Below are positions 3,889-15,038 of a stretch of 36,442 nucleotides of DNA, piece after piece. Below the pieces are notes generated by a model that ran no database searches, was not told where the DNA came from, and worked only from the letters and a program-made list of their open reading frames with translations. The position numbers and the translations under genes were made by a program. This DNA comes from Candidatus Geothermarchaeota archaeon (GTDB taxonomy: Archaea; Thermoproteota; Nitrososphaeria; Geothermarchaeales; JDFR-13), in NCBI GenBank assembly GCA_015523605.1, contig WAKC01000039.1, positions 1 to 36,442 on the forward strand, read 5' to 3'. The stretch's first letter is position 1. Each line of letters starts with the position of its first letter.

Positions 3889-5037
3889 ATGTCTGGATAT
3901 GATGTATTAGTCCTTGGAGTCGGGAATGTAGGTCGGGTCATAATTAGAGACTTGATCCAAGACAGGAATGTGAATAGGATATACGCAGTTGATTATAATA
4001 TTAAGAGTGTAGAGGATTTTGCATCTACACTAGAGAGTGAGAAGGTTATCCCGTTAAAGGGGGATGTTAGAGACATCGATTTAACTGCTAGCCAGATGTC
4101 TAAGGCAGATTACATTATAAATGCATCGTGGTATGAATTCAATATTCATGCTATAAAGGCTATGTTAAAGGCCAAGAGGGATATGCTCGACCTAGGCGGT
4201 CTCTATTGGATGACTAGGAAAGAGTTGGAGTGGGATGAAGAGGTTAGGAAGGCGGGTCTCACACTCTTATTGGGTGCAGGTGATGATCCAGGAACCTCTA
4301 ATATACTCGTTAGATATGGAGTGGATAAACTGGATTCTGTTGATGAGATTCACATTAGATGGGGGAGTAAGGGTGGTGAGGAGGATGCCTTTGGATTCTC
4401 TGTCGTAACTATCATGGATGAGGCAACAATGGATGCAGTTATGTATATAGATGGCAGGCTTGTTAAAGTCCCTCCTCTCAGCCATAAAGAGGTTACATGG
4501 TTCCCCGAGCCCATTGGATACCTAAATACCTATGCCATTATACACAGTGAATTGGCTACCCTACCATATACGATAAAAGGTGTGAAAACGATTACATATA
4601 AAGACTCTTGGGATGAATCTATCTTTCCTATCATTGATTTCCTGAGGAAGACGGGGCTTACATCTAGAGAGGAGGTTGACGTTCTAGGTGTTAAGGTTTC
4701 ACCGTTGAGGCTAGTAGGGACACTCATAAAGCCTAAGGAGGATCCGGCGACGCTAGGTGCTCTAAAGGTGGTGGTTAAGGGGGTGAAGGATGGTGAGGAG
4801 GTTAGATATACATATATACTTGGGCCGACAAGTGGTAAGGCTGAGTGGGGTGCTGGTGTAACGGCTGTGACTACAGCCTTTGGTGCAGTAGCTGGATTGA
4901 AATGTCTTGTAGAGGGGTTAGTCCCTAAGGGGGTATCCCCTCCCGAGTTGATTGAGAAGCCTAGGGTATGGATTGATGAGTTGATAAAGAGAGGAATACC
5001 AATTATGGAGATTGAGGAGCGGGTTAAACCTCTATAG
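3889..5037 (+). CDS. Saccharopine dehydrogenase-like NAD(P)-binding protein
   Basis: N-terminal Rossmann motif VLVLGVGNVGRVIIRDL; saccharopine dehydrogenase-like layout (DYIINASWYEFNIHAIKAMLKAKRDMLDLGG). Confidence 0.87.
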   Translation: MSGYDVLVLGVGNVGRVIIRDLIQDRNVNRIYAVDYNIKSVEDFASTLESEKVIPLKGDVRDIDLTASQMSKADYIINASWYEFNIHAIKAMLKAKRDMLDLGGLYWMTRKELEWDEEVRKAGLTLLLGAGDDPGTSNILVRYGVDKLDSVDEIHIRWGSKGGEEDAFGFSVVTIMDEATMDAVMYIDGRLVKVPPLSHKEVTWFPEPIGYLNTYAIIHSELATLPYTIKGVKTITYKDSWDESIFPIIDFLRKTGLTSREEVDVLGVKVSPLRLVGTLIKPKEDPATLGALKVVVKGVKDGEEVRYTYILGPTSGKAEWGAGVTAVTTAFGAVAGLKCLVEGLVPKGVSPPELIEKPRVWIDELIKRGIPIMEIEERVKPL

Positions 5038-5060: not shown

Positions 5061-5084
5061 CTATATGGATTATATGATTATGGG

Positions 5085-5140
5085 ATGATGACGGAGGTGA
5101 ATATGAGCCGAGAGGCTATGAAGACTCCTTTAAGTTCTGA
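5085..5140 (+). ncRNA. Candidate C/D box sRNA predicted to guide 2'-O-methylation of 16S rRNA
   Basis: C box ATGATGA 5085-5091, degenerate D' CCGA 5108-5111 (or ATGA 5103-5106), C' ATGAAGA 5118-5124 (6/7), exactly 12-nt guide CTCCTTTAAGTT 5125-5136, D box CTGA 5137-5140. Guide reverse complement AACTTAAAGGAG shares 11 nt with the conserved archaeal 16S AACTTAAAGGA(ATTGG). Confidence 0.65.
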
Positions 5141-5204
5141 CTATCTAACCCATATTTAATGTATTAGGATTACAGAGTATATGGTAAAAAGGAGGTTTAA
5201 TAAT

Positions 5205-6305
5205 CTATTTCTTCTTTACCACTCTCTCCCTTATCTGCTCTATATGTTTCTTTGGCAGTATTGGATCGGGCTTCTCCGGTATAATACCCTGTGGTCTGAA
5301 GAGTGATATCAACACAATTACTAATCCAATCATTATATATTCTAGCCATGCCACCTGGATAGGTATAATTGCTTCTAACAGGAATTTCTGTGAGAATATG
5401 AGGGTCCTGAAGATTGTGAAAATAAAGACTCCAAGCACCATTCCGAAGTTGTTGCCTGTCCCACCTAACATCATGAATGCCCATGGCCAGAAGGTCCATG
5501 TAACTCTATCATAGGTTATAGCTTTCATAGAACCTGTATACATAGCGTATAAAGCCCCTCCAATAGCTGCTATTGCACCTCCTATCATGAGTGTATAACC
5601 TCTTATCCTTGGTATGTTAACGCCATATACATTTGCAGCGGTCTCAGAATCCCTCATAGCCTTTAAAGTCCTTCCGAATGGGCTCTTTGATAATCTCTCT
5701 ATAAATAGGAATATCAGTGCTGCTAGAGCTAGCATAATCACTATTCTAGCTGTAAATTGGATGCCTCCTCTACCTATCCATCCATATACATTTGGTACGA
5801 ATACACCTTGTGTAGCCCCAACTATAGGTTGATAGTTCTCAGCAATGAGTTTAAGTGCATCTCCGAAGGCGAGTAGAGTAATACCTAGATAGGCTTCTCT
5901 AAGCCTAAGAGCGGGATATGAAGATAGATATCCAAGGAGGGCTCCGAATACTGCAGCTAAAGCCAGTGTCAGTATGAAGATGAATATGGAGAGTGCTGGA
6001 TTCGGATATAGAATTTCCCTATTTATCTGGTCTATGATGGGGAAGTTTAGAAGGTGATTCGCGTATTCAGAACCTAATGGGGTGATAATCTCACCCTTCC
6101 ACTCGACCTGAATGTTATATAGTAGAACAAGGAGACGTCCAGGGATCGCACCGGCTACAATAGCTCCTGCCAGAACTGCTAAGACCCTACCGAATTGTGG
6201 GATACCTGCATATCCTACTTCCAGGTTTAGGCTGAGTGTTACTATAAGGAATATCGAGAAGTTCATCAGGATGTCTATCAATATTGGTGGGATTTGTATA
6301 GGCAT
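5205..6305 (-). CDS. livM: Branched-chain amino acid ABC transporter permease LivM
   Basis: Multi-spanning protein with LivM-type ALRLREAYLGITLLAFGDALKLIAEN and SPFGRTLKAMRDSETAANVYGVN. Strong SD GGAGGTGA upstream of the ATG. Confidence 0.93.
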   Translation of the reverse strand: MPIQIPPILIDILMNFSIFLIVTLSLNLEVGYAGIPQFGRVLAVLAGAIVAGAIPGRLLVLLYNIQVEWKGEIITPLGSEYANHLLNFPIIDQINREILYPNPALSIFIFILTLALAAVFGALLGYLSSYPALRLREAYLGITLLAFGDALKLIAENYQPIVGATQGVFVPNVYGWIGRGGIQFTARIVIMLALAALIFLFIERLSKSPFGRTLKAMRDSETAANVYGVNIPRIRGYTLMIGGAIAAIGGALYAMYTGSMKAITYDRVTWTFWPWAFMMLGGTGNNFGMVLGVFIFTIFRTLIFSQKFLLEAIIPIQVAWLEYIMIGLVIVLISLFRPQGIIPEKPDPILPKKHIEQIRERVVKKK

Positions 6306-10373: not shown

Positions 10374-13300
10374 ATGAGGTCGAAATATTTTGCTATATTA
10401 GTTGTGATTATACTTCAGGTTTTACTTATTGGACCTGCAGTATCTACATCAAATGACAACTCTTTAGACGGATTGAGATTTGATGAGATAGGTAATGGTC
10501 CTGGGTATGCAATTATAGTTGTTGATGACAAGCCTTACATAGCCTTTGCACCACATCTGCTTTATCCGCTGGATTATATCGATAGTGTAAATATTGATGA
10601 TCTGAAGGTAGGCCTATTAGATCCTAGGGATATTGCCAATGAAAAGGTTAACTTGATAGTAGAGTATACATCTGATACTGAGAAGGAGTATCTTATAGAA
10701 AATATACTAGATATGGGAGGTAAAATCAACTTTGTCTATAAGTACTTGCCGTTCATAGCATTTGAGATAGAGGTTGGTAAGGTTGGTGATCTTATAAAGA
10801 GTTATGAACCGATGTATTTTAGCGTTGACTATAGGGTTGAGCTAAATCTGAATGAGAGTGTTGGGATGATAGTAGATTTTGATAGGCTAGCGGTTTTAGA
10901 GGCTAAACTAGCTGTAAAGATAGATGGCTCAGGAATTAAGATAGCAATTTTAGATACTGGTATTGACTGGACTCATCCAGACTTCTTCTTCCCAAATGGG
11001 ACCTCGAAGATTGTCTATAACGTTTCCATGGTGCCCGATGAAGATCCATATGACTATTATGGACACGGTACACATGTTGCAGGTATAGCCGCTGGAACTG
11101 GATTGGCAAGTAATGGAGTGTTCAAGGGCGTGGCCCCTGGAGCTCTACTAATGAATATAAAGGTATTGAGTAGTCAGGGATTTGGATTGACGAGCTGGAT
11201 TATAGCTGGTATTGAGGAGGCTGTGGCTAATGGGGCTGATGTAATCAACCTAAGCCTAGGAGGTGGATTAAACGGAGATGGTAGTGACCCACTTAGCAAG
11301 GCCGTCGACTGGGCGGTACAACAAGGTGTAGTTGTAGTTGCCGCCGCTGGTAACGATGGACCTAATTATGGGAGTTTAGGGAGCCCGGGAGTATCTACAT
11401 TGGCTATTACTGTTGGTGCGGTTGATAAGAATGGAGAGATTGCAGATTTCAGTAGTAGAGGACCAACTGGAGATTTGAGGGTTAAACCTGATGTATTAGC
11501 TCCTGGTGTGGATATCATAGCACCACTTGCTAAAGATAGTCTTCTTGAACGTGTGTTGGGCGACTCCCGTATAGAGGGGTCTGGCGGCGACTACATATCG
11601 TTAAGTGGTACCAGCATGGCCACACCTCATGTTGCCGGTGTCGCCGCGTTGATACTCCAGGTAAGGCCTGACATGAGTGCCCTGGATGTCAAGAATCTAA
11701 TAGTATCAACTGCTGATCCAATTGATTCAGATATTTTCTCATATGGAGCGGGTCTGGTTAATGCTGTCGACGCCTTAAATGCATCCCTCCTCTTCAAAAA
11801 TGTAAGTTTCAATGTTAACATGAGGAAAGTCTTTAGCAATACATATACCACTAATATAACGGTATTAGACTTGGATGGCCAACCCACTAATTTGTATGTC
11901 AAGAATATATCTATGACTGGATTTTATAATCCGGGATTCAACCTAACTTCATCAGTAAATGTAGATGTAATTGACTTGAATGCAACAGTAAAAAGGATAT
12001 CTATTGAGATTCCAATTGTAACCGATCAAGACCTGTATATGGGCCGTATAATATTTGGAACTTCGGATAATGAGGAGTATCAACTTATATTTACAGCCTA
12101 TAGACTCTTCGATGTATATCTAAACACTACATATAACGGCGAGGTATACTTCACCTTCTTCATAGCATATGACTCGGTGAATCCGGATAGATGGATCCTA
12201 CCGACGGGAGGAAGGATAGCAAGTGATGGAGAAGCATATTCCCTATGGTTTAAACTCCCATATGGAACATACAAGTTTATAGGGGTCTCGATAAACTCAT
12301 TCATGTCTGAAGATCTGCTTGAGGGACCGGTAACACTTATCTCTCGTGAGATTCAGCTAGATAGGGATGTGATCCAAACTATAGAGGTAAGTGGGTTTAG
12401 AAAAGTTACTTTACCAGTTAAGTATCGTGGGAATGATTTGGTGCCTATAGGGCATCTTTATGGATTATACACGCCCCAGAGGGATGTTGCAACTATTTAT
12501 CAGTATGGAGTATGGAATGTATCGGCAGATTATGAAATGTATGTATCTCTAGAAACTAATGATAAAATATATTTAAATATTCAGTATCTCCAAGTTCCAT
12601 ATAATGTGTCTGGATGGAATTATACCGAGATCCTTGACTACGCCACTACATATATAGACTCTTCATGGATTATCTCCCAGGCTTCACGTTCCCTCTTATT
12701 CCCAAGACTAACCTCATTCACATTAGATACTGGCTCTCAGGCGGGTAACGAGTCATATCTAGGTGGATTTGCAGTCTTCCCACCCCATCAGAGCTTTACA
12801 TTCCTAGTGCTTGGACCTGCATATCAAGGTGCAAGCTATAAACTTCTAGTCTCGGAAGACACTCAGATAGCGGGAGAGACAGAGAGTAAATATTTCCTAA
12901 CCTTCAATTCAAATGGATCCATATCTAGCTTAAGTGTCTTAGATACTTCCGCCACATCAAAGTCTTTAAGTCCAGCGACTCCGCCATATTTCCTCTACCA
13001 TAGAGTTGAGAAGAAGAGGATAGCTGGAGGACCAGCTATGAATATCACAACTTTCCTACTCTCGGATTTGGATCCTGTCCAGATGCCAGGGCCATACACG
13101 ACGGAGTATAAATTGATTTATAATGGAAGTGTTGTGGATAGAGATGTCTCTACAGGCTTGCCAATAGTAGGTTTCGATAATCTCAGGGATCTCGAACTAC
13201 CATACTATTTAATCGTGAATATGTCAAATACCAGAATGAATCTATTCTCAGATATCGATACAGTATTCTTCATCAATAGTTCCCAGCCCGATCCAGAACC

Positions 13301-15038
13301 GCCAATACTTTATGGGCTATATTCATACTTTATGGGAGATGTCATAGACTTTAGTTTATCCATCCTAGAGGGATTTGAACTTGAGAGGTTTGCAGTTTAC
13401 GTCTCTTGGGATGGGAGAGTGTTCAGAGAGGTAACCCCTAGATTGGAGAGTACAGAGGCATTAAGTACATACAATAGGTATAACTATCAGTTTTCAGTTC
13501 CTATTGAGGGTACAAGACTAGATATTAAACTCTTCTATATGGATTGGTATGGAAACTATGTGGAAACGGTATATAGGAATGTATATGTTAGGCAGATAGA
13601 TAGATACGATTTATTCCCAGAATTTGATGTATATCCGAGACTTCTGAGTGGGGATAAAACATTTAAGATTGAAGTATCTTCAGAAGGCGACTATTTATAT
13701 GGAGTTAGTCTATATATCAACGCTAGCCCAGTAATCAATATTCCGGTAAAAGGTGGTCAGGAGGTATTCCAGTTCTCAAAGGAGTTGTTAGGGGCTTCTC
13801 AGTATGACGTTGTTAGATTCAACGTTTTACTTTCTACATCTCCATATGTGCCTGAATTGGAGAAGAGGATTGGATTCCAAGTTGTATACACCAAATATGT
13901 GGTAAATTATACAGTCGCTAAGGATAGATTCAGTTTGGATGAGGTTGGACAGATAGAATTCAGCGTTTCATATCTACATAATGGTTCTCCCGCTAGTCCT
14001 GTAGAGCTAATAGTGAATGGATCGACATATCGGGTGGAGGATGGAAGACTAGTGATTAACGCCTCTATGGATTCACCGGGAACTTTGGTATACTATGTGG
14101 AAGACGCTAGATATGTTGATAAATATATTAACGTGACAGATTCTATATTACCCGTTGAACCGGCTAAATTAGTGTTTGACTCTATAGATGTATCATACCT
14201 TGGTGAGGATAGTTATAGGGTTGACGTTACAGATAGCGTCAGTATTAGATATGTGTTTAAGCATATGCTCGATTCGACAAGTGTTAAGGGATATCTGGAG
14301 TATATGTTGAATGACGAGGTTAGGAGGGTAGATTTAATCGACGGTGAAGCGACTATAACAGTATCTTCAGATGATGTAGGTAGGTACGAGGTCAGGCCAT
14401 TAAGAGTTGTAGATACTGAATATAATATAACCAGTGACTTATCTGATAGTCCAGCTATAGAGGTGGTCTTTGATAAGGTTGTTATAGAGTTGTCGACTGA
14501 TTACGAGGTTGTACAGGTAGGCCGTGAAATAAACATATACGTTAATGCATACTATGCCTATGACGGGACACCGTTTGATGGTCAAGTCTTTATAGAGCCA
14601 TTCCCCTATACAAAGGCCTCCCCTGGAGAGCTCGTCTTCAAAGTCTCTGGAATAGTTGATAATAAATATGGATTGACGAGCTTCATATCCAACGAGATTG
14701 AGGTATACTTTGACGAACTTGATATAAGAACTGTGGTAGAACCTTCACTAGGAAGGGTTAAGGTGACGATCGATGTCTATTTAAAGAATCTCGGGAGACC
14801 GGTGGATATCTACAAGATAAATGGTGTGGAGTATAGTGGGACATTTACAGAGGAGATTGGCGGCTTCATGATACAGTTTGAGAAGACCTATACAGTTTCT
14901 GTTCCAGGCTTCGATGATGTAACGATTGATGTACAGACTATGAACATGTACAACTTGGGTGTATTGGTGGGTGGAGTTCTGGTTGTGGCTGTAATTGCCT
15001 TGGTAATATTAAAGAGGTTTAGAGGATCGCGGGCCTAA
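10374..15038 (+). CDS. Secreted, C-terminally membrane-anchored subtilisin-like (S8) serine protease, 1554 aa
   Basis: Signal peptide; catalytic triad motifs ILDTGIDWTHPD, YGHGTHVAGIAAG, SGTSMATPHVAG; long beta-rich C-terminal region; terminal TM LGVLVGGVLVVAVIALVILKRFR. Confidence 0.96.
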   Translation: MRSKYFAILVVIILQVLLIGPAVSTSNDNSLDGLRFDEIGNGPGYAIIVVDDKPYIAFAPHLLYPLDYIDSVNIDDLKVGLLDPRDIANEKVNLIVEYTSDTEKEYLIENILDMGGKINFVYKYLPFIAFEIEVGKVGDLIKSYEPMYFSVDYRVELNLNESVGMIVDFDRLAVLEAKLAVKIDGSGIKIAILDTGIDWTHPDFFFPNGTSKIVYNVSMVPDEDPYDYYGHGTHVAGIAAGTGLASNGVFKGVAPGALLMNIKVLSSQGFGLTSWIIAGIEEAVANGADVINLSLGGGLNGDGSDPLSKAVDWAVQQGVVVVAAAGNDGPNYGSLGSPGVSTLAITVGAVDKNGEIADFSSRGPTGDLRVKPDVLAPGVDIIAPLAKDSLLERVLGDSRIEGSGGDYISLSGTSMATPHVAGVAALILQVRPDMSALDVKNLIVSTADPIDSDIFSYGAGLVNAVDALNASLLFKNVSFNVNMRKVFSNTYTTNITVLDLDGQPTNLYVKNISMTGFYNPGFNLTSSVNVDVIDLNATVKRISIEIPIVTDQDLYMGRIIFGTSDNEEYQLIFTAYRLFDVYLNTTYNGEVYFTFFIAYDSVNPDRWILPTGGRIASDGEAYSLWFKLPYGTYKFIGVSINSFMSEDLLEGPVTLISREIQLDRDVIQTIEVSGFRKVTLPVKYRGNDLVPIGHLYGLYTPQRDVATIYQYGVWNVSADYEMYVSLETNDKIYLNIQYLQVPYNVSGWNYTEILDYATTYIDSSWIISQASRSLLFPRLTSFTLDTGSQAGNESYLGGFAVFPPHQSFTFLVLGPAYQGASYKLLVSEDTQIAGETESKYFLTFNSNGSISSLSVLDTSATSKSLSPATPPYFLYHRVEKKRIAGGPAMNITTFLLSDLDPVQMPGPYTTEYKLIYNGSVVDRDVSTGLPIVGFDNLRDLELPYYLIVNMSNTRMNLFSDIDTVFFINSSQPDPEPPILYGLYSYFMGDVIDFSLSILEGFELERFAVYVSWDGRVFREVTPRLESTEALSTYNRYNYQFSVPIEGTRLDIKLFYMDWYGNYVETVYRNVYVRQIDRYDLFPEFDVYPRLLSGDKTFKIEVSSEGDYLYGVSLYINASPVINIPVKGGQEVFQFSKELLGASQYDVVRFNVLLSTSPYVPELEKRIGFQVVYTKYVVNYTVAKDRFSLDEVGQIEFSVSYLHNGSPASPVELIVNGSTYRVEDGRLVINASMDSPGTLVYYVEDARYVDKYINVTDSILPVEPAKLVFDSIDVSYLGEDSYRVDVTDSVSIRYVFKHMLDSTSVKGYLEYMLNDEVRRVDLIDGEATITVSSDDVGRYEVRPLRVVDTEYNITSDLSDSPAIEVVFDKVVIELSTDYEVVQVGREINIYVNAYYAYDGTPFDGQVFIEPFPYTKASPGELVFKVSGIVDNKYGLTSFISNEIEVYFDELDIRTVVEPSLGRVKVTIDVYLKNLGRPVDIYKINGVEYSGTFTEEIGGFMIQFEKTYTVSVPGFDDVTIDVQTMNMYNLGVLVGGVLVVAVIALVILKRFRGSRA

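Follow-up and report, generated by a model that had tools for sequence, protein, structure and literature searches.

Does the short gap between two convergent genes of Candidatus Geothermarchaeota archaeon carry a gene for a small guide RNA, and which nucleotides would such an RNA reach? We analyzed a window of 36,442 nucleotides (contig WAKC01000039.1, the whole stretch), in which a 167-nt gap separates a saccharopine-dehydrogenase-like gene from a convergent LivM-type permease gene. The first-pass annotation had placed an unannotated C/D box sRNA between these genes, and Pfam matches support its naming of both neighbors; the span that it gave, 5080–5153, comprises the core of the RNA and a loose distal stem. 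The C, C', and D boxes that it named, as well as the 12-nt spacing between C' and D, are all found in the sequence (Table 1). For the D' box it had offered either CCGA or ATGA, and of these ATGA stands, being invariant in four species at a spacing of 11 nt, whereas CCGA was rejected because it is not conserved among them. With ATGA as the D' box, an 11-nt D' guide, CGGAGGTGAAT, is exposed. The terminal stem, already described as weak, consists in the window of the distal 6-bp pairing alone, while in two members of the genus (G002 and G003) a GGGA/TCCC pairing abuts the boxes directly. The D'-C' linker varies among the four species of the genus (11, 12, 17, and 18 nt), and its hairpin varies with them, from 3 bp closed by a GAGA loop in the window to 6 bp in G002 and G003 and 2 bp in G001. 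Elsewhere in the window, positions 10374–15038 hold a gene for an unusually large subtilase-family (Peptidase_S8) protein of 1554 aa.

Table 1. Coordinates of the predicted sRNA, its parts and the neighboring genes in the window.
Feature	Position	Strand	Basis or remark
Core of the C/D box sRNA, 56 nt from C to D box	5085..5140	+	R1 model and pattern matches in 4/4 genus members, E about 1e-20 to 1e-21; alignment
C box ATGATGA	5085..5091	+	Identical in 7 sequences, 4 from Geothermarchaeota and 3 from Asgard archaea
D' guide CGGAGGTGAAT, 11 nt	5092..5102	+	Complementary to 16S 3' end UCACCUCC; predicted D'+5 = A1534 (E. coli numbering)
D' box ATGA	5103..5106	+	Genus-invariant at 11-nt spacing; CTGA in Asgard relatives
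D'-C' linker GCCGAGAGGCT, 11 nt	5107..5117	+	Small hairpin GCC-GAGA-GGC; genus length range 11–18 nt
C' box ATGAAGA	5118..5124	+	Kept in the genus, with variants
D guide CTCCTTTAAGTT, 12 nt	5125..5136	+	Complementary to 16S AACUUAAAGGA (E. coli 908–918); predicted D+5 = U912
D box CTGA	5137..5140	+	Unchanged in 7 sequences (4 Geothermarchaeota and 3 Asgard)
Possible terminal stem, 5' arm TATGGG	5079..5084	+	Pairs with CCCATA at 5149–5154; weak, not conserved in this form
Possible terminal stem, 3' arm CCCATA	5149..5154	+	Starts 8 nt past the D box
Saccharopine-dehydrogenase-like gene	3889..5037	+	Pfam PF16653/PF03435; upstream syntenic neighbor on the same strand as the sRNA
LivM-type branched-chain amino acid permease gene	5205..6305	-	Pfam PF02653; convergent neighbor

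A DNA search of relatives recovered the stretch in all three remaining genomes of the genus. The sRNA keeps to the same convergent gap, the gene order being visible in G003 and G001 (L058 and L060), while the copy in G002 immediately follows this dehydrogenase gene; conservation of synteny and guides in close relatives, one of the checks that the first-pass annotation had proposed, therefore has a positive outcome within the genus. Between diverged species pairs the region from C to D is 71–81% identical, against 42–49% in the 60 nt upstream and 17–39% in the 60 nt downstream. Box order and guide lengths (11 and 12 nt) are kept in 4/4 genomes while the flanks have diverged, and no letter differs among the four species in the C and D boxes, in the D' box ATGA, or in the guide stretches GGAGGTGAAT (D') and TCCTTTAAGT (core of D). 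Furthermore, the window species encodes a fibrillarin in its own genome (PF01269, 2.2e-77). A search of 401 genomes of the class with the R1 model matched the four genus members only. At the dehydrogenase-gene loci of other genera of the same family (g2–g5) neither GGAGGTGA nor CCTTTAAGT was found, and the sRNA thus looks genus-specific at that place. No Rfam family reached its gathering score for the sRNA stretch in searches at gathering and relaxed thresholds; matches below threshold, at 8–12.5 bits, include the archaeal C/D families sR41, sR33, sR5, sR2, and sR3. By every core sequence feature tested, the terminal stem apart, this is a C/D box sRNA, and conservation marks 5085–5140 on the forward strand as a real, previously unannotated gene of that archaeal type.

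Because the window's own assembly lacks a 16S sequence, we used the same-genus 16S of G003 (L023) as the pairing reference. The D guide had first been matched, over 11 nt, to a conserved archaeal 16S segment, and the match survives comparison with L023: the window guide forms 11 contiguous Watson-Crick pairs (AACTTAAAGGA; guide-shuffle p = 0.002). This segment is the best 16S site of the D guide, which forms 10 contiguous pairs in the other three species of the genus, and p ranges from 0.002 to 0.008 across the genus. The N+5 rule places the target at the second U of AACUU, which we take to be E. coli position 912 from the standard primer covering 907–926, so that the register in the same-genus 16S agrees with the U912 predicted earlier. 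In the established 16S structure, the segment 908–918 includes the central pseudoknot's 3' strand. Several other families of Thermoproteota likewise have C/D sRNAs in which this D guide to 912 follows a C'-like box and stands beside CTGA, and there CCTTTAAGT-N-CTGA occurs with differing D' guides (L124, L125, L127, L129, L132, L135, L140, L141, L145, L146, and L148); one such partner, GAACTCCCCAGT, matches 16S CTGGGGAGT. The sharing of one D guide by several families indicates that 16S 912 is itself a recurrent target.

Several features of the rRNA sequences were observed in passing. In six genomes (G005, G006, G020, G489, G708, and G639; L031–L037, L193–L195, L200, and L202) the matches to 16S are interrupted close to model position 857, after GGAATTGGCGGGGGAG and just 3' of the D guide target; those inspected (L031, L033, L035, and L036) stop at contig ends, so the breaks are probably an artefact of metagenome-bin assembly. 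The 16S (C4:194063-195561) and 23S (C4:112285-115359) genes of G003 lie about 80 kb apart and share no operon. The full 23S of this genome (L041, on C4) shares 94% identity with the 23S of G000 (L043, G000:C25) but only about 70% with a second 23S-like stretch (L044, C3:31-2035), which is either a copy that has diverged or part of a contaminating contig.

The target of the D' guide had been left open by the first-pass annotation. We found that its best 16S site is the extreme 3' end, UCACCUCC, which forms the anti-Shine-Dalgarno tail, in 4/4 species of the genus. The pairing comprises 8 contiguous pairs in three species and 9 in G001, with A1534 at +5. Taken on its own, the guide of the window species is not significant (8 bp, guide-shuffle p = 0.083), and its pairing is mismatched at -2 and has a G-U pair at -1; the case for 3'-end targeting rests on the relatives. 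Matches of the D' guide to tRNA loci, to the available 23S, and to other 16S sites were weaker or inconsistent across species. Under the Watson-Crick +5 rule, the same-genus 16S shows complementarity at both 908–918 and 1532–1539, and the +5 register at the 3' end varies by lineage, A1534 in some and C1533 in others.

The same pair of guides occurs outside the genus. An exact two-guide pattern (TGATGA-N0-4-GAGGTGA-N15-45-CTTTAAGT-N-CTGA) was scanned against one genome per species from 85,488 prokaryote species (264 Gb), for which our own arithmetic gives about 0.07 matches expected by chance. Six matches were returned, three in this genus (titled Candidatus Geothermarchaeota, Nitrososphaeria, and Thermoprotei) and three in Asgard/Njordarchaeota (2/3 titled Candidatus Njordarchaeota), with none elsewhere. 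The Asgard sRNAs have canonical C, D', C', and D boxes, a D'-C' linker of only a few nucleotides, and a D' guide GGAGGTGATCT (in the forms GGGAGGTGATCT or TGGAGGTGATCT). Measured against a Thermoproteota 16S reference, these guides form 10 Watson-Crick pairs and a wobble with GGAUCACCUCC (p 0.003–0.008), and their complementarity reaches upstream into GAUC. As these extra pairs lie outside the Shine-Dalgarno core, they favor the 16S 3' end as target over a chance Shine-Dalgarno motif.

The 3'-end guide is also spread more widely within Thermoproteota, where its module form, beside the C box, reads C box-N-GGAGGTGATC. In a model-free count across 400 Thermoproteota genomes, we recorded the spacing between TGATGA and GGAGGTGAWC over 13 lengths. 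A spacing of exactly 1 nt was found at 21/33 loci (P about 6e-16 under uniform spacing) and, counted by genus, in 11/23 genera (P about 3e-7) belonging to 9 families. One of the 21 loci, that of G045, has the appearance of an ordinary translation start, while most of the others are followed downstream by D', C', and D boxes. Relatives with a 12-nt 3'-end guide keep the register, with C1533 at +5. On these loci, about ten further genera of Thermoproteota have the predicted 3'-end guide beside their C box. Its partners differ. In family f63 the D guide finds its match at the 5' end of 16S, CCGGTTGATC (p 0.005 in G582 and 0.007 in G662; 0.05–0.17 in the others). In genus g185 the partner GATAGCAG resembles the 5'-region segment CTGCTATC, a comparison made without g185's own 16S and offered as a lead only. 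Several relatives with the 3'-end guide showed no convincing D target, which argues that a bridging of two 16S regions is not general. As a separate observation, C/D sRNAs in genus g154 of f63 (L147, L150, and L174–L178) match both ends of 16S with a single RNA, the D' guide the 3' end and the D guide the 5' end (GATCAACCGG type).

We consider it probable (roughly 0.85) that the locus encodes a dual-guide C/D box sRNA directing methylation of U912 through its D guide and of A1534 through its D' guide. L7Ae, Nop5, and fibrillarin would assemble on the C/D and C'/D' motifs; the D guide, paired with 908–918, would direct 2'-O-methylation of U912 (Um912), and the D' guide, paired with the 3' tail at 1532–1539, that of A1534 (Am1534). 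Where the guide of a relative extends by one more nucleotide, C1533 would be methylated instead. Against this reading count the weak terminal stem, the D' box, which reads ATGA in place of CTGA, and the shift of register between A1534 and C1533 among lineages. With one guide on 908–918 and the other on the anti-Shine-Dalgarno tail, a single RNP would touch the central-pseudoknot strand and the tail together, and its binding may transiently occupy both, or hold them close, during 30S assembly. What the sequences themselves show are the boxes with their spacings, the complementarity, the conservation, and the synteny; expression of the RNA, assembly of the RNP, methylation, and any secondary effect of occupying the pseudoknot strand and the tail are inferred. 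A chaperone role, in which the sRNA would bridge the region of the central pseudoknot and the 3' end of 16S, is a tentative proposal, which we think unlikely. We hold to be equally speculative the broader idea of a widespread archaeal class of sRNPs, present in Geothermarchaeota and Asgard archaea, that would bind the 3' tail and the central-pseudoknot strand in advance, hide and methylate the anti-Shine-Dalgarno sequence, and so prevent premature folding or initiation by the immature 30S.

A narrower form of the dual-guide reading, to which we give about even odds, has the sRNA as an ordinary guide for 2'-O-methylation of two separate 16S nucleotides with no part in bridging or chaperoning. 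Methylation alone accounts for the whole anatomy of the RNA, and the guide pairs of archaeal sRNAs recombine freely (PMC4644070). In other Thermoproteota the 912 guide stands with unrelated D' guides, and the 3'-end guide stands with varied D guides across relatives. Against so simple an account stand the recurrence of the same unusual, far-apart pair of sites in both Geothermarchaeota and Asgard archaea and the identity of the second partner that could be resolved, in f63, as the 16S 5' end, which is the other side of the central pseudoknot.

It is also conceivable, but improbable, that the RNA regulates translation or serves as a decoy, GGAGGTGA being a Shine-Dalgarno mimic that binds the mature 30S, whether or not it also directs methylation. 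The D' guide complements the anti-Shine-Dalgarno sequence almost perfectly, and occupancy of the tail would be expected to block initiation. However, the complementarity of the Asgard guides extends upstream into GAUC, and many families keep +5 in register with the end of the guide, as methylation of 16S predicts. We give still less weight to a short protein-coding gene, in which GGAGGTGA would serve as the Shine-Dalgarno sequence of an ATG followed by 18 codons in the window. Although GGAGGTGA-AT-ATG of the window species resembles a strong translation start, the putative peptides of the four species have 18, 12, 14, and 3 residues and are dissimilar, so the stretch does not look coding; the linker varies by single nucleotides that shift the frame, the Asgard relatives carry CTGA in place of the putative start ATG, and the conserved letters are exactly those of the boxes and guides. 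With neither frame nor peptide conserved, we rejected a small ORF after GGAGGTGA. Finally, a chance motif with no gene behind it, suggested by the shortness and degeneracy of C/D boxes, is refuted at the sequence level by conservation in four species against diverged flanks, by the kept synteny, and by the Asgard occurrence.

As a dual-guide RNA, the predicted product shares with known archaeal C/D box sRNAs (Dennis et al. 2015, PMC4644070; Breuer et al. 2021, PMC7994747) an RUGAUGA C box, a C'-like box, and CUGA-like boxes, together with two guides of 11–12 nt, the N+5 rule, a small intergenic gene, and a fibrillarin in the genome. It differs from them in the D' guide to the 16S 3' end and anti-Shine-Dalgarno tail and in its D'-C' linker, which is a short loop in the known sRNAs but measures 11–18 nt and contains a hairpin in this genus. 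The D guide of Pyrobaculum calidifontis sR56 is probably directed to the same 16S stretch, its target U894 (an alignment position) corresponding approximately to E. coli 912 by interpolated numbering offsets only; the D' targets of sR56 are G1358 and G925, unlike the 16S 3' end here (PMC4644070). Earlier work proposed that dual guides chaperone 16S sites lying far from each other (PMC4644070; PMC7994747), and Nanoarchaeum equitans sR17 and sR15, which are proposed chaperones (PMC4644070), likewise place two guides on far-apart 16S sites. Whereas these hold both strands of helices 28 and 30, the sRNA described here would hold a central-pseudoknot strand and the 3' tail. The main texts consulted on archaeal C/D box sRNAs carry no mention of a guide to the 16S 3' end or anti-Shine-Dalgarno sequence, the 195 published 16S sites being listed in supplementary tables, and paper searches on such a guide returned nothing relevant; it may be previously undescribed.

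Two further likenesses are resemblances in action, as we read them by analogy, and not membership. The eukaryotic U3 snoRNA is likewise part of a C/D-type RNP acting at the pseudoknot strands: its box A pairs with the 5' side of the 18S central pseudoknot and potentially the 3' side, pairings that exclude folding of the pseudoknot (PMC4340053). U3 membership was considered and rejected, since the sRNA has a C-D core of only 56 nt with two ordinary guides, unlike U3 with its long 5' region bearing box A/A' and its B/C and C'/D motifs (PMC8162545). The bacterial GTPase Era, like the D' guide, occupies the 16S 3' end, GAUCACCUCC, during assembly; Era is a protein, however, and archaea lack it (PMC10582724). 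U3 is much longer than the sRNA, has atypical boxes and no known methylation role, and there is no evidence for common descent of the two. We know of no pairing of U3 with the 3' tail.

If the pre-binding idea were true, such an sRNP would be the RNA-based equivalent of two factors, U3 at the central pseudoknot and the bacterial Era at the 16S tail. Guide pairs are reportedly poorly conserved between archaeal species, yet the combination of a guide to 912 with one to the 3' end is shared by Geothermarchaeota and the Asgard archaea, which are the closest group to eukaryotes. By 2'-O-methylating or transiently occupying the anti-Shine-Dalgarno tail, a guide RNA would act on the step that makes the archaeal 30S subunit competent for mRNA selection, and would tie this step to folding of the central pseudoknot.
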